Shown here piece after piece: positions 53,247 through 62,545 of a stretch of DNA of 62,545 bases. A program made the translations under genes and the position numbers. Each line of letters opens with the position of its first letter. Positions within the stretch are counted from its first letter, which is position 1. The stretch comes from Lachnospiraceae bacterium. GTDB lineage: Bacteria > Bacillota > Clostridia > Lachnospirales > Lachnospiraceae. The notes beneath the pieces are model-generated. The model was not told the DNA's origin, made no database searches, and worked only from the letters and a program-made list of their open reading frames with translations. The DNA lies in contig JAFSIQ010000007.1 in the NCBI GenBank assembly GCA_017439675.1, positions 84,310 to 146,854 on the forward strand, read 5' to 3'.

Positions 53247-54148
53247 TGAATCTTTCGGTAAATATTGCAGGGGTAGAGTTTAAGAATCCAGTGACAGTGG
53301 CATCGGGTACATTTGGTTCTGGTGCGGAGTACGGTGATTTTGTTGATTTGAGTAAGTTGGGTGCAGTTACTACTAAAGGTGTAGCAAATATCCCTTGGGC
53401 TGGTAATCCAACTCCACGTATCGCGGAGACTTATGGAGGAATGATGAATGCAGTTGGGTTGCAGAATCCAGGTATTGATGTGTTCTGTAAGAGGGATATT
53501 CCGTTTTTGCAGCAGCAGAATGCCAGCATTATTGTTAATGTATGTGGTAAGTCAGAAAAGGATTATGTAGAGGTTGTAGAGCGTTTGGCAGATGAGGATG
53601 TGGCATTGCTTGAGATTAATGTGTCGTGTCCGAATGTCAAAGAGGGCGGTATCGCATTTGGTCAGGACCCTAAGGCGTTAGAGCAGATTACCAAGGCAGT
53701 GAAAGCAAAGGCGAAGCAGCCGATTGTGATGAAACTGAGTCCGAATGTAACAGATATTACGGAGATGGCGAGAGCTGCAGAAGCAGGTGGTGCAGATGCA
53801 CTTTCCTTGATTAATACATTAACAGGTATGAAGATTGATATTCACCGACGAAGCTTTGCGGTTGCCAACAAGACTGGTGGCGTATCGGGACCGGCAATTA
53901 AGCCAATTGCAGTGCGCATGGTATATCAGGTTGCCAATGCGGTGAAGCTACCATTGATTGGTATGGGCGGTATTATGAACTACGAGGATGCAATCGAATT
54001 TATGATGGCAGGTGCTACTATGGTTTCTGTTGGTACAGCGAACTTCCATAATCCTTGTGTAACGCTTGAGATTATTGAGGGTATGAAGAAGTTTATGGAA
54101 GAAAAGGGTATTGAGGATATTAACGAGATTATTGGATGTGTGAAATAA
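53246..54148 (+). CDS. pyrD: Dihydroorotate dehydrogenase (NAD+), catalytic subunit 1B
   Basis: A 300-residue FMN enzyme converting dihydroorotate to orotate. It has 'NPVTVASGTFGSG', 'TTKGVANIPWAGNPTPRIAE', 'LEINVSCPNVKEGG' with the catalytic Cys, 'VMKLSPNVTDI', 'GVSGPAIKPIAVRMVYQVA' and 'GMGGIMNYEDAIEFMMAGAT'. The class 1B is confirmed by its fused order with pyrK, with a 1-nt overlap. Normal length. Confidence 0.96.
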   Translation: MNLSVNIAGVEFKNPVTVASGTFGSGAEYGDFVDLSKLGAVTTKGVANIPWAGNPTPRIAETYGGMMNAVGLQNPGIDVFCKRDIPFLQQQNASIIVNVCGKSEKDYVEVVERLADEDVALLEINVSCPNVKEGGIAFGQDPKALEQITKAVKAKAKQPIVMKLSPNVTDITEMARAAEAGGADALSLINTLTGMKIDIHRRSFAVANKTGGVSGPAIKPIAVRMVYQVANAVKLPLIGMGGIMNYEDAIEFMMAGATMVSVGTANFHNPCVTLEIIEGMKKFMEEKGIEDINEIIGCVK

Positions 54149-54163
54149 AGGAGGAGTTAAGTG

Positions 54164-54841
54164 ATGGAAGCATACAAGCAGGAATTTATTGAATTTATGG
54201 TGGATTCAGACGTACTTAAATTTGGAGATTTTACATTAAAGAGTGGACGTAAGTCTCCGTTTTTTATGAATGCAGGAGCGTATGTAACAGGCTCGCAACT
54301 TATGCGATTAGGCGAATATTATGCAAAGGCAATTCATGAGACCTATGGTGATGATTTTGATGTGTTGTTTGGACCGGCTTATAAAGGTATTCCAATCAGT
54401 GTTGTGACAGCAGTTGCATACAGCAAGCTTTATGGTAAGGAAGTTCGTTACTGTTCTGACCGCAAGGAAGAGAAGGATCACGGCGCAGATAAGGGAAGTT
54501 TTCTTGGCAGTTCTTTGAAAGATGGTGACAGAGTGGTTATGATAGAAGATGTGACAACCTCTGGTAAATCTATGGAAGAGACTGTGCCAAAGGTAAGAGG
54601 TGCTGCGGATGTTGAGATTGTTGGACTTATGGTTTCCTTGAACCGTATGGAAAAGGGTAAAGGGACAAAGAGTGCACTAGAAGAAATTAAAGAATTATAT
54701 GGATTTGAAACGGCTGCGATTGTCTCTATGGCGGAGGTGACAGAGCATCTTTATAATAAGCCATATAAGGGAAAGATCATCATTGACGATACATTGAAGG
54801 TTGCAATTGATGCATACTATAAGCAATACGGCGCTGAATAG
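54164..54841 (+). CDS. pyrE: Orotate phosphoribosyltransferase
   Basis: A 225-residue enzyme joining orotate to PRPP. The PRPP-binding motif is 'RVVMIEDVTTSGKSMEE' (about 125-140). The substrate loop 'RKEEKDHGADKGSFLG' near 105 and 'FTLKSGRKSPFFMNAG' near 20 are typical. ATG 54164 is 6 nt after AGGAGGAG; GTG 54161 just before it is an alternative. It is the last biosynthetic gene of the pyr operon and is followed by a small membrane protein 10 nt on. Confidence 0.96.
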   Translation: MEAYKQEFIEFMVDSDVLKFGDFTLKSGRKSPFFMNAGAYVTGSQLMRLGEYYAKAIHETYGDDFDVLFGPAYKGIPISVVTAVAYSKLYGKEVRYCSDRKEEKDHGADKGSFLGSSLKDGDRVVMIEDVTTSGKSMEETVPKVRGAADVEIVGLMVSLNRMEKGKGTKSALEEIKELYGFETAAIVSMAEVTEHLYNKPYKGKIIIDDTLKVAIDAYYKQYGAE

Positions 54842-54851
54842 GAGGTAAACT

Positions 54852-55004
54852 ATGAACGAAAAAGTATATAAGACAATGGGAAGCATTGGTGGTTGGAATA
54901 TTGCATTTGGTATTATTTTGATTGTTGTGGGTGTGACCATGGGTGTGATGCAGATTATTCATGGCGGAAGACTATTGCACGACAAGAAGGATATTACGTT
55001 CTAA
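54852..55004 (+). CDS. Small membrane protein at the end of the pyr operon, 50 residues
   Basis: A short protein 'MNEKVYKTMGSIGGWNIAFG' with one transmembrane helix (about 15-36) and a basic tail 'GGRLLHDKKDITF'. GGAGGTAA lies 4 nt before the ATG, immediately after the pyrE stop, so it is translated with the operon. I recall similar small proteins after pyrE in Lachnospiraceae, but no function is known. Confidence 0.7.
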   Translation: MNEKVYKTMGSIGGWNIAFGIILIVVGVTMGVMQIIHGGRLLHDKKDITF

Positions 55005-55024
55005 TGGCTTAAAATGGAGAATAT

Positions 55025-56581
55025 ATGATGAAGGTAAAAAGAATAACCGCATTTTTTCTTATGGCGGTAATGCTAGTGGGAATGATTGGCGTATCGGATA
55101 CGGTATATGCAGAAAATGACGATTCTACACTGGTTGTGGGATTCGATGCAGAATTTCCACCATATGGATATAAGGATGAAAATGGTGAGTATGTGGGATT
55201 TGATTTGGATTTGGCTGCGGAGGTGTGTAAGCGTCGAGGATGGACGCTGGTGAAACAGCCTATCGATTGGAATTCCAAGGATATGGAGCTTTCTTCGGGA
55301 AGCATCGATTGTATCTGGAATGGTTTTACCATTAATGGACGTGAGAATGAATACACGTGGTCTGTGCCGTATGTGGATAATTCTCAGGTGGTAATTGTTA
55401 AGAGAGATTCTGGTATCGCGACTTTGGCTGATTTGAAAGGCAAGGTTGTAGTAGTACAAACGGATTCTTCGGCATTAGCTGCATTTACAGGAGAGGGTGC
55501 TACGGAAGAGAATATTGCTCTATGTAAGTCATTCAGTGACTTGCAACAGGTAGCAGATTATAACAGCGCATTTATGAATTTAGAAAGCGGCATGGTGGAT
55601 GCTATTTGTATGGATATTGGTGTTGCTAAGTTTCAGGTAGAATCCCGTGGGGATGCGTTTGTGATTTTGGAAGAAAATGTGTCCTCAGAAGCCTATGGTG
55701 TAGGATTCAAGCTTGGTAACGAGGCGCTTCGTGATGAGGTGCAGGAGACCTTGCGTGAGATGGAAGCGGATGGAACATTTGCTGTAATTGCCAAAGAGTG
55801 GGGCTTATCGGATTGTATCTGTCTTGAAACTTCCTTTGAGGAGTTGGATACTATAGGTGGTACAGAAGAAAGTGCTACAGATAGTGAGACGGGGGTTGTG
55901 AAAGATGGAACGTCTGGTAACAAATTGGATATTGCTTCCATTGTGAAACAGTTAGGACAGGGAATGCTTGCTACATTGACGATTTTTGCGCTTACTTTGT
56001 TGTTTGCTTTACCGCTTGGCTTGGTTATTATGTTTATAAGAACTTCCAATTTCGCACCATTTCGTTGGTTGGCAAAGCTGTACATATCTATTATGCGTGG
56101 AACGCCGTTGATGTTGCAGCTGTTGGTTGTGTTCTTTGGTCCGTACTACTTGTTTGAGTGGGAGATGCCGAGTAGCTATCGTTTTACTGCGGTTATTATT
56201 GGATTTTCTCTAAATTATGCAGCATATTTTGCAGAAATCTATCGTTCTGGTATACAGAGTATTCCGGTGGGACAGCGAGAAGCTGCTTTGGTGCTTGGTT
56301 ATAGTAGGGGACAGACATTTCGAAAGATTATATTTCCACAAATGGCAAAGGTGGTTATGCCTTCAGTGACAAATGAAGTTATTACGTTGGTGAAAGATAC
56401 TTCCCTTGCGTTTGCACTTGCATATACAGAAATGTTTACGTTGGCAAAACAGATTGCGGCAGCAAAAACCAGTATTGTGCCATTGTTTGTGGCAGGTATT
56501 TTCTATTATGTATTTAATTTCTTGGTTGCGTTTGTAATGGAACAAATCGAAAAGAAAATGGACTATTATAAGTCAAAATGA
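55025..56581 (+). CDS. Amino-acid ABC transporter, fused binding protein and permease
   Basis: A 518-residue fusion. A signal peptide (1-28) is followed by an SBP_bac_3 domain (about 35-265) with 'LVVGFDAEFPPYGYKDENGE' and 'GFDLDLAAEVCKRRGWTL', typical of polar amino-acid binders, then a linker and a HisM/GlnP-type permease (about 300-515) with five helices and the EAA-like loop 'GQREAALVLGYSRGQTFRKI'. Such fusions occur in GlnPQ-type importers of Firmicutes. The expected ATPase (GlnQ) is not downstream; a 241-nt gap and an unrelated gene follow. GGAG is 6 nt before the ATG. Confidence 0.93.
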   Translation: MMKVKRITAFFLMAVMLVGMIGVSDTVYAENDDSTLVVGFDAEFPPYGYKDENGEYVGFDLDLAAEVCKRRGWTLVKQPIDWNSKDMELSSGSIDCIWNGFTINGRENEYTWSVPYVDNSQVVIVKRDSGIATLADLKGKVVVVQTDSSALAAFTGEGATEENIALCKSFSDLQQVADYNSAFMNLESGMVDAICMDIGVAKFQVESRGDAFVILEENVSSEAYGVGFKLGNEALRDEVQETLREMEADGTFAVIAKEWGLSDCICLETSFEELDTIGGTEESATDSETGVVKDGTSGNKLDIASIVKQLGQGMLATLTIFALTLLFALPLGLVIMFIRTSNFAPFRWLAKLYISIMRGTPLMLQLLVVFFGPYYLFEWEMPSSYRFTAVIIGFSLNYAAYFAEIYRSGIQSIPVGQREAALVLGYSRGQTFRKIIFPQMAKVVMPSVTNEVITLVKDTSLAFALAYTEMFTLAKQIAAAKTSIVPLFVAGIFYYVFNFLVAFVMEQIEKKMDYYKSK

Positions 56582-56754
56582 TTGTGGGCATTTTGTACAA
56601 AGGGATTGTGCAAAAGGCTGACAAATTGACGTTGTATGGGAAAAAATGGAAATGAAAAGTGGATATTTCAGTTTTTAAAAGTTGAAATATGGGCAGAATG
56701 CACAATGAGTGCTGTGCAAAAAGCACTAAATATAAATTCACGCGTTGAGAATTG

Positions 56755-56783
56755 TTGAAAATACACAAAAGATGTAGTATAAT
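56755..56783 (+). promoter_or_regulatory. Promoter of the 56823 gene
   Basis: TTGAAA, exactly 17 nt, then TATAAT. The rest of the 56582-56822 gap has a small hairpin TGCACA/TGTGCA at 56699 and no gene. Confidence 0.65.
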
Positions 56784-56822
56784 ATGTATATGTTGAAGGC
56801 GCGGTGAATGGAGGTGACGCAT

Positions 56823-57053
56823 ATGGCACTTTTTGGAAAGAAAGAAGAGAAGAATTATATAGTATTTGATCCATACACGGAAGAGGCAATTGCTGTATGC
56901 ATAACCAAAGAGGTTAAGCAGATTTCACAGGTTCAGCCCAAAGCTCAATTTGTAGAGTGCTCCTCTTACGAATTCTTCAAATACAAAGAACATGCACAGT
57001 TGCCGGCAGATGTGGCAAGTCGTCCGAGACTTTCAGCCAAAGATATTAAGTAA
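56823..57053 (+). CDS. Small soluble protein of unknown function, 76 residues
   Basis: A 76-residue protein 'MALFGKKEEKNYIVFDPYTE' ending 'DVASRPRLSAKDIK'. No membrane segment. GGAGGTGA lies 5 nt before ATG 56823; an earlier ATG at 56808 is less well placed. It has its own strong promoter and a terminator, so it is an independent gene. No family was recognised. It is the last gene before the GTPase-nuclease fusion, which lies beyond the terminator. Confidence 0.65.
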   Translation: MALFGKKEEKNYIVFDPYTEEAIAVCITKEVKQISQVQPKAQFVECSSYEFFKYKEHAQLPADVASRPRLSAKDIK

Positions 57054-57096
57054 GATGTTTATTCATATAGATTGTGTTACACATTTCCTTTCCTTC

Positions 57097-57137
57097 GGGG
57101 CAGATTTTATCTAGTATAGAATCTGCCCTCCTTTCTT
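57097..57137 (+). terminator. Rho-independent terminator
   Basis: GGGCAGATT pairs exactly with AATCTGCCC around a 13-nt loop, then TCCTTTCTTTTC. Confidence 0.75.
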
Positions 57138-57250
57138 TTCTGACAATAGTTAGGCGTTTGCGAAACAAGGAAAAGCACATTTTAGAATGCTTGCAATTCC
57201 TGTTGTTTTATTCTATAGTGAAGATATGAAGAGTTTTGCAGGAGGCAATT

Positions 57251-59839
57251 ATGAAACGATTTGCGGTGGGTATTCTTGCTCATGTGGATGCGGGAAAAAC
57301 TACATTATCAGAAAGTCTTTTATATGAAAGTGGAATGATTAAGAAATTAGGACGGGTGGATAATCAGAATGCTTTTTTGGATACGGATGAGTTAGAGCGT
57401 GCCAGAGGGATTACCATTTTTTCTAAGCAAGCCGTAATTCGATGTGAGGATACACAGATTACGTTGTTAGATACCCCAGGACATGTGGATTTTTCAGCAG
57501 AGATGGAACGTACTCTGTGGGTTATGGATTATGCAATTTTGGTAGTCAGTGGTGCAGATGGTGTACAGGGACATACGCTGACGTTATGGAAATTGTTACA
57601 ACGATATGGCATACCTACATTTATCTTTGTCAATAAAATGGATCAGGATGGGACGGATAAGCAAAAGGTGCTGTGTGAACTGCAAAAGGAATTTGGCAGT
57701 GGTTGCGTAGATTTTACGGAGCAACAACAGGAAATGTGGAAGGAACATATTGCTGTCTGTGATGAAATATTGTTAGAACGTTATCTGGAGGGACAGGACA
57801 TTTCTCGGGATGATATTGTGAGGTTGACTCAAAGTCGAAAATTGTTTCCTTGTTATTTTGGTTCGGCATTGAAATTGCAGGGGGTAGAGGTCTTTTTGTC
57901 TGATGTGATTCGGTATATGAAAGAATCATCGAAGGGCGATACATTTGGTGCGAAGGTGTTTAAGATTGGGCGAGATGCACAGGGGAATCGCCTTACGTAT
58001 CTGAAAATTACTGGTGGTGAGTTGAAGGTAAAGGATATTGTCGGTGGAAAGTCGAAGGATGGTTTCTTCGAAGAAAAGGTGAATCAGATTCGCATTTATT
58101 CCGGTGAAAAATATGAGACGGAACAAAGTGTGTCTGTAGGTGCGGTGTGTGCTGTGACGGGGCTTACAAAAACTTATCCGGGACAGGGTTTAGGGGTGGA
58201 ACGAGAGTCGGAACTTCCGTTGTTGGAACCAGTGTTGAACTATCGGGTGGAATTGCCAGAGGATGTAGATGCTGCCCGTATGCTCCTGATGCTCAAGCAA
58301 TTAGAGGAGGAACAGCCTGAATTGCATGTTGTCTGGCAGGAGGAGTCGAAATCCATTCAGGTAAAGCTTATGGGTGAGGTTCAGATTGACGTGTTGAAAA
58401 AGCGTATAGCAGATCGGTTTGGTGTGCAGGTTTCTTTTGGAGTTGGAGATATCGTATATAAGGAGACCATACAAAGTAGAGTAGAGGGAGTTGGTCATTT
58501 TGAACCTCTTCGCCACTATGCAGAGGTGCATCTGCTGTTAGAACCAGGCGAACTAGGCAGTGGAATGCAGTTTGCTATGGATTGTAGTGAAGATGAGTTG
58601 GATAAGAATTGGCAAAGATTGATTGTGACGCACTTGGAGGAAAAGGAATATATTGGTGTGCTTACCGGTTCTGCCATAACGGATATGAAGATTACAGTGG
58701 TTGGTGGACGAGCACATACCAAGCATACAGAGGGTGGCGATTTTCGTCAATCCACCTATCGTGCTGTGCGTCAAGGTTTGATGCAGGCAGATTCTGTTTT
58801 ACTGGAGCCATATTATGATTTTCGCATTGTGGTTCCGCAGGACATGGTGGGAAGAGTAATGACGGATTTGAGTCAGATGAGCGGAATATTTGAAGCTCCG
58901 GTGATAGAAGGCGACAATGCCATTGTAACGGGAACGGTTCCGGTTGCTACGATGCGAGATTATCAGATTGCATTGAATTCTTTTTCGAAGGGAAGAGGAA
59001 ACTTACTTTGTACTTTGAAAGGATATGGACTATGTCACAATCCGGAGGAGGTTATAGAACGTATTGGTTATGATGCGGAAAAGGATACAGACAATCCGTC
59101 TTCTTCTGTATTTTGTTCTCATGGTGCGGGATTTGTAGTGCCGTGGCATCAGGTGAAGGACTATATGCATGTGGAATCTATATTTGCAGATGCAGATAGA
59201 GAAGATGCATGGGAAAATGATATAGAAGAGATGTCGGAGCTTGCAAAGAGAAAGGCATCTTTGGTGGAGTATTCTATTGATGAAGAACAGATTGAAGCAA
59301 TTTTGAATCGGACTTCTCATGCCAATGAAAGGGCATCTAAACATTACTATAAGAAACCAAAGCCTAAGATGGAGGTTACGTATAAGGGGCAATCAAAACC
59401 GAAATTTAAGGATAAATACTTAATTGTGGATGGGTATAATATTGTTCATGCATGGGATGACTTGAAGTGTTTGGTGGAAGATAACCTAGAGGGAGCACGA
59501 ATGAAGTTAATGGACGTGCTTTCCAATTATCAAGGATTTGTGAAATGTGAAGTGATTGTGGTATTTGATGCGTACCTAGTAAAGGGAAATCTAGGAGAAA
59601 TGTTTGATTATCAGAACATTCATGTGGTGTATACCAAGGAAGCTGAAACAGCAGATTCTTATATAGAGAAGCTAACTCATAGGATATCAAAAGACTATCA
59701 TGTGACGGTTGCTACATCGGATGGGCTAGTGCAGTTGATTACAAGGGGACAGAATTGTGTTGTTATGTCTGCCAAGGAATTGCAGGTTGAGGTAGAACGG
59801 GTTAATCAGGCAATACGGGAATATTTACACAATATTTAG
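57251..59839 (+). CDS. TetM/EF-G-like ribosomal GTPase fused to a Rae1/YacP-type NYN nuclease
   Basis: An 862-residue fusion. Residues 1-650 follow the plan of TetM-type ribosome protection proteins/EF-G: G1 'AHVDAGKTT' (10-18), G2 'RGITIF', G3 'DTPGHVDF', G4 'NKMDQDG', then domains II-V with 'GVGHFEPLRHYAEVHLLLEP'. A Lys-rich linker (about 675-720) leads to an NYN/PIN-like nuclease (724-862). It has 'LIVDGYNIVHAW', 'VIVVFDAY', 'TADSYIEKL' and 'VATSDGLVQ', which place acidic residues near D727, D773, D802 and D824. That domain resembles B. subtilis Rae1 (YacP), which cleaves mRNA in the ribosomal A site. The fusion may deliver the nuclease to ribosomes. AGGAGG is 5 nt from the ATG. No evidence of tetracycline resistance; single gene, not mobile. 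Confidence 0.88.
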   Translation: MKRFAVGILAHVDAGKTTLSESLLYESGMIKKLGRVDNQNAFLDTDELERARGITIFSKQAVIRCEDTQITLLDTPGHVDFSAEMERTLWVMDYAILVVSGADGVQGHTLTLWKLLQRYGIPTFIFVNKMDQDGTDKQKVLCELQKEFGSGCVDFTEQQQEMWKEHIAVCDEILLERYLEGQDISRDDIVRLTQSRKLFPCYFGSALKLQGVEVFLSDVIRYMKESSKGDTFGAKVFKIGRDAQGNRLTYLKITGGELKVKDIVGGKSKDGFFEEKVNQIRIYSGEKYETEQSVSVGAVCAVTGLTKTYPGQGLGVERESELPLLEPVLNYRVELPEDVDAARMLLMLKQLEEEQPELHVVWQEESKSIQVKLMGEVQIDVLKKRIADRFGVQVSFGVGDIVYKETIQSRVEGVGHFEPLRHYAEVHLLLEPGELGSGMQFAMDCSEDELDKNWQRLIVTHLEEKEYIGVLTGSAITDMKITVVGGRAHTKHTEGGDFRQSTYRAVRQGLMQADSVLLEPYYDFRIVVPQDMVGRVMTDLSQMSGIFEAPVIEGDNAIVTGTVPVATMRDYQIALNSFSKGRGNLLCTLKGYGLCHNPEEVIERIGYDAEKDTDNPSSSVFCSHGAGFVVPWHQVKDYMHVESIFADADREDAWENDIEEMSELAKRKASLVEYSIDEEQIEAILNRTSHANERASKHYYKKPKPKMEVTYKGQSKPKFKDKYLIVDGYNIVHAWDDLKCLVEDNLEGARMKLMDVLSNYQGFVKCEVIVVFDAYLVKGNLGEMFDYQNIHVVYTKEAETADSYIEKLTHRISKDYHVTVATSDGLVQLITRGQNCVVMSAKELQVEVERVNQAIREYLHNI

Positions 59840-60436
59840 TTTCTTCAATTCGTGATATAGTTTGCTGATTGGCAATCCGACTACATTAAAATAGTCGCCA
59901 TGGATTCCTTTTATATGTTTGGCAAATGGTCCCTGAATTCCATACGCTCCCGCTTTGTCCATACAGTCTTTTGTGCTGATATAGTCCTTCAATTCATAAT
60001 CGTTTATGGAACAGAAGGTTACATCGGTTTTCTCGTGAAAGAAGTAAGTCTGTTTGGCACCGTCGCATCTATATAGAATGGCAACGCCAGTATAGACTTG
60101 ATGTGTCCGATCGGAAAGGAGCTTTAGCATATCAAATGCTTCTTGTTCATCTTCTGGCTTTCCTAATATTTCACCATTGTAGCATACGATAGTGTCTGCA
60201 CCGATAACGAGAAAATCTTTTCCTTCGTAATTCTTTTTAATTGTGCGATATACGTCATTTGCTTTTTGTAAAGCTAAATTCTCTACAACCTTATCCGGTG
60301 TGTCGGAGAGGGTGGTTTCCTCTATGGTGGATGGTATGATGGTAAAGGAAAATCCTGCTTGTGTCATTAATTCGGAACGTCTAGGAGATGCAGATGCAAG
60401 TGTAATTGGAATCTTGTTCAATGGTTGAGTTTTCAT
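59825..60436 (-). CDS. maf: Maf-like nucleotide pyrophosphatase
   Basis: A 203-residue house-cleaning nucleotide pyrophosphatase. Signature 'LASASPRRSELM' (about 12-23), the catalytic 'IGADTIVCYNGEILGKPEDE' and 'TKDCMDKAGAYGIQG' are all present. It hydrolyses non-canonical or methylated NTPs, probably dTTP/UTP-type in the Maf group. The ATG at 60436 has AAAGGAG 11 nt upstream. An upstream in-frame start at 60502 is less likely. It converges on the GTPase-nuclease gene with a 15-nt tail overlap and no terminator between. Confidence 0.93.
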   Translation of the reverse strand: MKTQPLNKIPITLASASPRRSELMTQAGFSFTIIPSTIEETTLSDTPDKVVENLALQKANDVYRTIKKNYEGKDFLVIGADTIVCYNGEILGKPEDEQEAFDMLKLLSDRTHQVYTGVAILYRCDGAKQTYFFHEKTDVTFCSINDYELKDYISTKDCMDKAGAYGIQGPFAKHIKGIHGDYFNVVGLPISKLYHELKKLNIV

Positions 60437-60617
60437 AATGTGTGTTTCTCCTTTCTGGTCTTCGAACTTGTGATGCCTAACTTGTCTAATATTTGTGAGC
60501 AAGTGAAACGGCTAACTGCATTATAACACAAAATCTTCAAAATTCGGATATTCATTTGCAAGAAATGTGTATGAGTGATACAATCAGACAATAGTCATGT
60601 TATTTTAAGGAGTGCTT

Positions 60618-61727
60618 ATGAAAAAAGGTATTATAATATTCATAGTAATTTTAATATTGGCGTTGGGTGGTTTGTATGGATACATGACCAATCCGTTTAT
60701 TCAGGAAAAAATTGCATCTATTACAGAAGAAGATTTTTCGGAGGAGAATATTTATTCAGACTTGGAAAATCTTTCTGTTCGTTTGGATGAGGAGATTATG
60801 AATGGAGAAGAATCATTTACTGTGTACTTAAAAGATATGGATTTGAGTGCGATTGACCAGATTAATGATTCCTTGAGTGGAGTGTACGGAAGTGGAACTA
60901 CTTATCAGCAGGTAGGAGCAATTGGTGATACTTACAAAAAGGTTACCATTACAGTTGGACGAACTACTAATTATTATGCGGTTAAGGCTTATTTGAATCA
61001 GGAGCCGATACCAGCGACGGAGCAGAAAGCACAACAGCTATATCAGGTGATATGCCAGGTTATGGCAAATTATGTAGATGAGTCTATGACAGACTTTGAA
61101 AAAGAGATTGCGATACATGATTATCTGGTGAAGAATTGTCGGTATAGCGAAGATACAACACAGCCATCCGGAAGTGATATTTTTCGCGCGTATGGTGCGT
61201 TGGTAAATAAGGACGCAGTTTGTAACGGGTATGCAGAAGCGTTACACATATTATTTACCTGTGCAGGTCTGGAAACACAATTTGTGGTGGGAACTGCAGA
61301 TGGAGTGGATCATGCGTGGAATTTAGTACAGTTAGACGGAGAATGGTATCATTTGGACGCTACGTGGAATGATCCGGTGCCAGACCAGAAGAATACAGCG
61401 ATACATGCATATTTTAATGTTCCAGATGATATTATGTCAGTCACCCATGTGTGGGAGCAGGAGAGGTATCCGAAGGCGAGAAGCATGGACTACAATTATT
61501 ATGCATACCACAATTTGTATTTTGATAATTTCATGCTTTGTAAGGATAATGCGTATACTTCTATGGTGACCAACAAGAATGATTGGTACGAAGCAGCCGT
61601 GAAGAACTATGTGGAAAATGAAAATGATATGCAATTTGTGTTTGAGAATAATAATATGTATGAAAGTGTGAGTTGGAAAATGCTCGGTTCGGGCGAATAT
61701 TGTGTTTTGGTAATCGAGGCAGATTAA
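60618..61727 (+). CDS. Transglutaminase-like protein, membrane-anchored
   Basis: A 369-residue protein with an N-terminal helix (about 5-25) facing outward, then a transglutaminase-core domain (about 135-270). The Cys-His-Asp triad is seen in 'KDAVCNGYAEALHILFTCAG', 'GVDHAWNLVQLDG' and 'HLDATWNDP'. Such bacterial proteins act as peptidases or cross-linkers at the cell surface; the substrate is unknown. ATG 60618 was chosen, with AAGGAG 5 nt upstream. A DUF1700-like gene follows by 10 nt. Confidence 0.88.
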   Translation: MKKGIIIFIVILILALGGLYGYMTNPFIQEKIASITEEDFSEENIYSDLENLSVRLDEEIMNGEESFTVYLKDMDLSAIDQINDSLSGVYGSGTTYQQVGAIGDTYKKVTITVGRTTNYYAVKAYLNQEPIPATEQKAQQLYQVICQVMANYVDESMTDFEKEIAIHDYLVKNCRYSEDTTQPSGSDIFRAYGALVNKDAVCNGYAEALHILFTCAGLETQFVVGTADGVDHAWNLVQLDGEWYHLDATWNDPVPDQKNTAIHAYFNVPDDIMSVTHVWEQERYPKARSMDYNYYAYHNLYFDNFMLCKDNAYTSMVTNKNDWYEAAVKNYVENENDMQFVFENNNMYESVSWKMLGSGEYCVLVIEAD

Positions 61728-61737
61728 GGAGGCAGAC

Positions 61738-62265
61738 ATGACAAAACAGGAATTTTTAGATGAGTTGCGACAGTCGCTATCCGGTGAGGTTTCCCCTGAA
61801 GCAATTATGGATGCGTACCGATATTATTCTACTTATATTGAGGATGAGATGCGCAGTGGTAAAGCTGAGGAGCTGGTGTTAGAGGAATTGGGACGTCCGG
61901 CTTTGATTGCACGTTCTATTATTGCGGCAAATACTGGTGAGAGGGAAGCGGATGTAGAATATACAGAGGATGGAAGAAGTCGTAAGATATATAACAATCC
62001 ATTTTTCTCGGATTCTGCGAAGGAAGAACGGCAGGAACGCAAAAAGGAGCGGCAGAATGGAAGGCAGAGAACGAAAAGCAAGACGTTTGTGTTTGACTTC
62101 AATTCCTGGTATGCCAAGGTTATCTATGTGCTTATTTTTATTTTGTTGGTATTAATTGTGTTTGGACTGATTAAAATTGGTTTCTGGGTGTTGATTCATT
62201 TTGGGGTTCCGATACTGTTGGTCCTTGGAATTGTGTATCTGATTCTTTATTTTGTGAATCGATGA
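61738..62265 (+). CDS. DUF1700-like membrane protein
   Basis: A 175-residue protein. The N-terminal part 'MTKQEFLDELRQSLSGEVSP' and 'EELVLEELGRPALIARSII' matches DUF1700/HAAS-type helical domains, often paired with PadR-like regulators. A basic linker (about 95-120) precedes two transmembrane helices (about 125-146 and 153-174). AAGGAGG lies 6 nt before the ATG and the gene is cotranscribed with the transglutaminase-like one. No PadR gene is visible nearby. Confidence 0.8.
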   Translation: MTKQEFLDELRQSLSGEVSPEAIMDAYRYYSTYIEDEMRSGKAEELVLEELGRPALIARSIIAANTGEREADVEYTEDGRSRKIYNNPFFSDSAKEERQERKKERQNGRQRTKSKTFVFDFNSWYAKVIYVLIFILLVLIVFGLIKIGFWVLIHFGVPILLVLGIVYLILYFVNR

Positions 62266-62358
62266 AGGCGTGAATGATTAGAATAGTCCGAGAAATTAGG
62301 GGGGCAATTCGCATTATAAAGTAATAGAAAAATTTTATGAAAAAAGTGAAAATAATGC

Positions 62359-62387
62359 TTGACAAGTGGCTGGATTTTTAATATACT
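62359..62387 (+). promoter_or_regulatory. Promoter of the tRNA cluster
   Basis: TTGACA, exactly 17 nt, then TATACT, 24 nt before the first tRNA. A near-consensus stable-RNA promoter. Confidence 0.8.
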
Positions 62388-62410
62388 ATGATTCGTGTCA
62401 AGCGCACAAT

Positions 62411-62483
62411 GGAATCTTAGCTCAGCTGGGAGAGCATCTGCCTTACAAGCAGAGGGTCACAGGTTCGAGCCCTGTAGGTTCCA
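62411..62483 (+). tRNA. tRNA-Val (anticodon TAC)
   Basis: A complete 73-nt cloverleaf. The acceptor GGAATCT pairs with AGGTTCC, the anticodon loop is CTTACAA between CTGC and GCAG, and the T arm is ACAGG-TTCGAGC-CCTGT. Discriminator A; CCA is not encoded. Confidence 0.95.
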
Positions 62484-62487
62484 TTTT

Positions 62488-62545
62488 GGCGGGATAGCTC
62501 AGTTGGCTAGAGCACTTGGTTCATACCCAAGGTGTCGGGAGTTCA
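62488..62545 (+). tRNA. tRNA-Met (anticodon CAT), truncated by the window
   Basis: The 5' part of a tRNA with acceptor GGCGGGA, D arm AGCTC/GAGC and anticodon stem CTTGG/CCAAG around TTCATAC. The anticodon stem lacks the GGG/CCC of initiator tRNA, and position 1 is G, so elongator Met (or tRNA-Ile with lysidine) is meant. The 3' end is outside the window. Confidence 0.85.

Follow-up and report, generated by a model that had tools for sequence, protein, structure and literature searches.

Rae1 (YacP) of Bacillus subtilis is a standalone protein of about 170 residues that works there without a fused GTPase. The portions of the literature consulted present it as an endoribonuclease of the A site, for which entry into stalled ribosomes has been proposed, and as destabilizing mRNAs in a translation-dependent manner. 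On the GTPase side, the part of the source consulted describes Ser508-Pro509-Val510 of TetM as clashing with bound tetracyclines (PMC7456112). Both kinds of module were placed in one chain by Atkinson 2015 (BMC Genomics, PMC4342817), where the architecture studied here was recorded in ten species of clostridiales, named as 'Tet' proteins with a YacP-like NYN domain and read as antibiotic resistance or as an rRNA RNase; the portion of that text consulted contains no rae1 replacement, emptied operon, relic, breadth or distinction from true Tet proteins. Among the literature matches listed, only PMC4342817 describes the fusion and none reads it as Rae1. The architecture itself has been known since 2015, and the replacement of rae1, its emptied seat, its relic and the breadth of the fusion appear to be new within the literature searched.

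The window analyzed here, a 62,545-nucleotide stretch of a Lachnospiraceae contig, carries one such gene on its forward strand. An earlier note, made from the letters alone, had proposed a translational GTPase fused to a Rae1-type nuclease at 57251-59839, and its coordinates and residues proved right: the fusion of GTPase and Rae1-type nuclease is real and confirmed. The mechanical open reading frame opens at TTG 57236; AGGAGG lies at 57240-57245, and ATG 57251 is therefore the likely start, so that Pfam residue numbers were converted to ATG numbering (minus 5). The features are as follows.

57097..57129, + strand: terminator-like hairpin in the gap from a small upstream ORF to the fusion gene (one hairpin, where shuffled sequence gives 2.1 on average; weak by count alone)
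57240..57245, + strand: ribosome-binding site AGGAGG, 5 nt ahead of ATG 57251 (direct reading)
57251..59839, + strand: whole fusion gene, 862 residues plus stop (ORF calling, Pfam, position of the ribosome-binding site)
57263..57922, + strand: G domain GTP_EFTU, residues 5-224 (Pfam 174.9 bits, cut-off 26.5; motifs by alignment)
58226..58441, + strand: EFG_III, residues 326-397 (Pfam 40.3 bits, cut-off 27)
58448..58789, + strand: EFG_IV, residues 400-513 (Pfam 54.6 bits, cut-off 24)
58715..58750, + strand: domain IV loop III tip HTKHTEGGDFRQ, residues 489-500, TetM counterpart YSPVSTPADFR (alignment)
58796..59038, + strand: EFG_C (domain V), residues 516-596 (Pfam 72.1 bits, cut-off 27.9)
59024..59185, + strand: C-terminal segment (CHN..EVI..Y, SVFC.HGAG, W, MH) (alignment)
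59186..59404, + strand: linker, charged and poorly conserved (alignment)
59420..59824, + strand: NYN_YacP (Rae1-type) nuclease domain, residues 724-858 (Pfam and solved-structure match)
59429..59431, + strand: active-site Asp D727 (alignment to 5mq8/5mq9, conservation)
59567..59569, + strand: active-site Asp D773 (same basis)
59654..59656, + strand: active-site Asp D802 (same basis)
59720..59722, + strand: active-site Asp D824 (same basis)

Upstream, an 81-residue ORF (56808-57053, + strand) has no Pfam or NCBIfam match, and a promoter-like site lies near it at 56755-56783. An Rfam scan of 54000-62545 returned tRNAs only, two of whose genes occupy the window's end (62411-62545), the second one cut.

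The nuclease half was identified with the HMM search that the earlier note had suggested: PF05991 (NYN_YacP) matches residues 724-858 at 159.9 bits against a cut-off of 24.6 (E 7e-47). Among solved structures the sole good match to this domain is 5mq8/5mq9, 'Uncharacterized protein YacP' (E 3.8e-23), which we take to be Rae1/YacP from Bacillus subtilis. The alignment covers residues 4-137 of that chain, and D727, D773, D802 and D824 each fall on an Asp, which bears out the claim that all four acidic sites are intact; B. subtilis Rae1 differs in having no GTPase attached and in possessing a C-terminal tail that the window protein is without. Across 150 fused ORFs, in which some genomes are represented more than once (130 distinct fused C-terminal parts are complete), Asp occupies positions 727 and 773 in 150/150 and positions 802 and 824 in 149/150, the exception (L135, genome G230) being cut by a contig end. 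The G-domain motifs are likewise intact by alignment, as the earlier note had it, and 55 other near-full-length fused proteins conserve the majority of positions in these motifs, in the domain IV tip and among the NYN Asp residues (conservation alignment A1, 41 rows). Judged from these residues, both enzyme halves look live. Two places after D773, position 775 (59573-59575) is Tyr in all 150 fused ORFs (repeats included) and, in standalone Rae1, Tyr in 11/34 and His in 23/34, a lineage-specific residue.

Distribution was surveyed in 150 genomes of the window's family (Lachnospiraceae) and 196 of its class (Clostridia), with the window's own genome in both samples. NYN_YacP occurs in 135 of the 150 family genomes: 123 fused, 9 standalone (G007, G016, G020, G024, G029, G054, G059, G068, G099) and 3 that are split or sit at the edge of a contig (G042, G095, G128). 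The 123 comprise 120 with a frame of at least 700 residues and 3 shorter frames that also hold GTPase sequence (G098, G135, G140). At class level the domain is found in 128/196 genomes, with 67 fused, 58 standalone and 3 split or edge cases (G200, G288, G329). A survey for a separate intact rae1 beside the fusion, named in the earlier note as a test of its reading, found none: an intact standalone rae1 accompanies an intact fusion in 0/123 family and 0/67 class fused genomes, against 9/27 and 58/129 of the non-fused ones, an exclusion for which the Fisher test takes no account of phylogeny. Second NYN matches consist of a 139-residue fragment at a contig start (G039), weak sub-threshold hits (G076, G285), two pieces of one ORF (G130) and two fused copies (G282). 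The window's own genome, only 70% complete, has one PF05991 match, the fusion itself. In 14 control genomes the same search gave two matches, B. subtilis and Synechococcus. No NYN_YacP match was obtained in 15/150 family and 68/196 class genomes, so the Rae1 function is either dispensable or was missed there; the 15 family genomes (G004, G030, G033 and 12 others) have no GTPase match at E 1e-100 either, and may have lost the system entirely. That the fused form replaces standalone rae1 in the sampled genomes is well supported.

Standalone rae1 has rlmB just upstream in 18/21 loci (exceptions L162, L169, L171), with mrnC nearby in 16/21, sigH in 15/21 and cysS in 13/21, some loci being cut short. 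These neighbor names rest on locus L164, where cysS, RlmB and SigH pass curated models and mrnC is presumed from its position. The surroundings of rlmB were inspected in 36 fused genomes picked by hand (20 from the 123 of the family, 16 from the 67 of the class), and an NYN gene is missing beside it in 36/36; sigH comes next in 24/36 (15/20 plus 9/16), and 12/36, the window's own genome included, show no sigH within the ~1.5 kb examined. The own-genome locus (L207) reads cysS, mrnC, rlmB, with no NYN beside, and two standalone controls (G208, G258) both keep the order rlmB-rae1-sigH. Genus g181 holds a live rae1 in G208 and the fusion in G174 and G285. The rlmB-sigH gap of G174 contains an NYN match of 32.7 bits in a stop-broken frame, where 300 shuffles reached no more than 4.6 bits. 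Aligned with the rae1 region of G208 across 587 columns, indels included, the gap shows 71.6% identity (E 3.5e-80). The ancestral rae1 decayed in place in this one lineage. Weaker traces remain in the gaps of G261 (14.3 bits, shuffle maximum 6.1) and G308 (11.1 bits, shuffle maximum 5.1), while the other five of the eight gaps tested (G127, G203, G282, G285, G304) gave nothing above the HMMER inclusion line. The plainest account is that rae1 became dispensable once the fusion had been gained.

Since the fused form stands in for a separate rae1 among the relatives sampled, its probable role is cleavage of mRNA on stuck ribosomes and not tetracycline resistance. Stalled-ribosome rescue, mRNA quality control and stress shut-off, the roles suggested in the earlier note, are conjectural. 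Our preferred reading, to which we give a probability of roughly two in three, is that the fusion is the cell's Rae1, a ribosome-dependent mRNA endonuclease, borne by its own translational GTPase to paused ribosomes. For the fused protein itself we infer ribosome binding, the cutting site and GTP gating; the replacement of rae1 speaks for equivalence of the nuclease part and is not proof of delivery by the GTPase. By analogy with EF-G and TetM, the GTP-bound module would bind the factor site when a ribosome is paused and its A site is empty, and the conserved KHTEGGDFR tip of the module would reach the decoding center. GTP hydrolysis would then release domain IV, and the NYN domain, kept near by a linker of ~80 residues, could enter the A site and cut the exposed codon, so that mRNA decay would begin. 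The two modules cannot share one A site; they would therefore act sequentially, or the cut would fall on a neighboring ribosome. More tentatively, and at well under even odds, the GTPase might sense the paused ribosome and its empty decoding center, with the tethered Rae1 cutting only after GTP hydrolysis; such a protein would replace an ungated standalone Rae1 across much of Clostridia and free Rae1 of its docking tail. One fused ORF (L273, genome G135) consists of GTPase domains I-III, ~110 residues and NYN, with domains IV and V absent. Such an ORF would not be expected if delivery depended strictly on the tip, although it could be an artifact of assembly. If the preferred reading holds, a natural fusion that replaces Rae1 in most sampled family genomes would make docking, GTP hydrolysis and cutting separable by point mutations in one protein, and with that give access to the question of how Rae1 reaches and picks its ribosomes.

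The tail of the nuclease bears on whether the halves depend on each other. The stretch after the last Asp is at least 63 residues in 34/34 standalone proteins and shorter than 50 in 30/130 distinct fused proteins, a difference with p 0.0008, uncorrected for kinship. The window protein has 38 residues there, against a typical tail of about 65, a length that is a trait shared by the sequences compared here and not a published definition. In B. subtilis, R166P, near the Rae1 C-terminus, was among the suppressors of an efp mutant and is read as loss of function by the authors in the text consulted (PMC6613710); R166 lies beyond the NYN part aligned to the fusion. In some lineages, including that of the window, ribosome docking may have passed from the lost tail of Rae1 to the GTPase. 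We considered and set aside a relic of the lost tail downstream of the stop codon, since the matches in G031, G086 and G094, which run past stops, are too weak to claim.

The strongest alternative, which we nevertheless consider unlikely, is that one chain carries two independent enzymes, a GTPase with its own job, such as the removal of a drug or the relief of a stalled A site, and a Rae1 that is merely co-expressed. The linker would allow it, being long (66-145 residues, median 80, in the 150 fused ORFs, repeats included), variable and charged (E/K/R-rich), and Rae1 works alone elsewhere. Further room is given by an unfused sister GTPase, present at 780 bits or more in ten class genomes, five with a standalone Rae1 and five without any NYN_YacP (G178, G183, G211, G227, G332); with half of its carriers lacking the nuclease, this sister GTPase therefore has a Rae1-independent role. 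Left out of the ten were G280 (NYN absent, match truncated by the end of a contig), G219 (a fused genome whose second piece sits at the edge of a contig) and G198, G266 and G296 (459-534 bits, standalone Rae1). A coupling of the unfused GTPase to Rae1 was examined as a candidate and dropped, as the two show no association among non-fused class genomes (p=1). Within the family the association is positive (5/5 vs 4/19, p=0.003, with split and edge cases dropped and phylogeny ignored). A full unfused sister GTPase gene beside the fusion was found in 0/67 class and 0/123 family genomes, the second piece in G219 lying at a contig edge.

What tells against independence is the persistence of the joined form together with the loss of the tail in those 30/130 fused proteins, which suggests dependence on the partner. 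A tree built from 85 selected NYN rows puts every one of the 51 fused domains in one well supported set (100/99), along with ten standalone rows from the same order. Three changes are required on the free tree; a single fusion origin, though not proven, is compatible with the data (AU p 0.464). Rows from families f9, f23, f24, f28, f50, f54 and f64 nest inside the window family's fused proteins in this tree, pointing to horizontal spread, and the fused form lasts in many families. Natural fission was pursued in the two split cases examined (G042 and G200) and discarded, as both have the look of frameshifts. For the GTPase half, a quick tree of 61 selected rows, with SH-aLRT support only, gathers 42 fused proteins and one Ligilactobacillus protein (94), places 13 unfused Clostridia proteins as their sister group (93) and sets five Tet-like rows apart (99), one of which (L199) is without the TetM tip. 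In aligned rows the unfused relatives have the GHFEPLRHY, HTxGGDFR and SVFC segments in common with the fusion and, unlike it, no NYN domain.

It is far less probable that a tetracycline ribosomal protection protein has here acquired a nuclease that aids resistance, for example by cutting rRNA, as suggested in 2015 in the text of PMC4342817 consulted. Several signs lean that way on their face: the best-scoring curated model for the fusion protein is tet_protect (NF012153), its top PDB matches are TetM, and the Agathobacter rectalis copy is named TetM/TetW/TetO/TetS resistance protein by NCBI. The tet_protect score, however, is 438.5 bits, far under the cut-off of 775, and NF033148 (297.5 vs 1100), the TetM model (254.9 vs 1420) and EF-G TIGR00484 (318.7 vs 659.4) fall short as well. 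TetM Ser508-Pro509-Val510 align to T490-K491-H492, within the conserved KHTEGGDFR of the fusion protein, so the TetM-specific domain IV loop residues that the earlier note had proposed to look for are absent; the TetM C-terminal end RRPNSR..KVRHMF is absent too, and the SVFC segment stands in its place. This segment (59024-59185) is common to the fusion and its unfused relatives and missing from the aligned TetM-type rows. The likeness to TetM, TetO and TetW lies in the order of the domains and in roughly 30-33% identity across some 600 residues; the tip of domain IV, the C-terminal end, the curated score and the distribution among genomes are unlike theirs. Separate Tet-like genes of 643-644 residues (372-412 bits) coexist with the fusion in at least 14 family genomes; the TetM tip is present in 3/3 of those aligned, and four sit on a long separate branch.

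The gene is also seldom carried on plasmids, as matches over at least 80% of the protein occur on just 2 of 72,556 plasmid records. The description 'TetM-like' in the earlier note calls for correction: G-domain motifs together with EF-G domains III, IV and V place the protein in the EF2 family of translational GTPases, but it fails the curated Tet models and is without the TetM tip and C-terminal end. On scores and alignments, the GTPase half is best placed in a separate, non-Tet translational GTPase subfamily. The accompanying forecast that automatic annotation would call tetracycline resistance came true for A. rectalis and failed for Monoglobus, whose copy is a 'translation factor GTPase family protein'. 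Some gut-bacterial 'tetracycline resistance' genes, that of A. rectalis being one example, are thus suggested to be mRNA-decay factors, and would inflate resistance surveys. A nuclease for rRNA or tRNA maturation, steered by the GTPase to assembling ribosomes, has very little likelihood, despite the early proposal of such a role for the NYN domain (cited in the part of PMC4342817 consulted) and the position of standalone rae1 next to rlmB, a 23S rRNA methyltransferase gene, and a putative mrnC, because B. subtilis Rae1 is described, in the text consulted, as a translation-dependent destabilizer of mRNA and the fused domain keeps its residues.

The fused gene has no neighborhood common to more than a small part of its loci. 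A phage collection yielded two records with a full fusion, the unverified 'Bacteriophage sp.' entries MT835563 (L160) and MT835514 (L161). Ten ORFs were scanned across both; the scan of L160 was uninformative, and phage origin was rejected for MT835514, which looks like bacterial chromosome, L161 ORFs matching UvrD helicase, FeoB, a carbohydrate kinase and radical SAM. The nearest named relatives of the window protein, 77% identical, come from Lachnospiraceae of deer colon, goat colon and similar sources, and the host bacterium is probably from an animal gut. Outside Clostridia, a Ligilactobacillus salivarius megaplasmid encodes a 'translation factor GTPase family protein' whose identity across residues 1-642 is 47%; it is unfused and groups, on a long branch, with the fused proteins and not with the 13-row Clostridia sister group. 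At its locus (L159), the unfused gene is divergently oriented, its neighbors being an extra rpsN and the gene of a 'putative metal homeostasis protein'.
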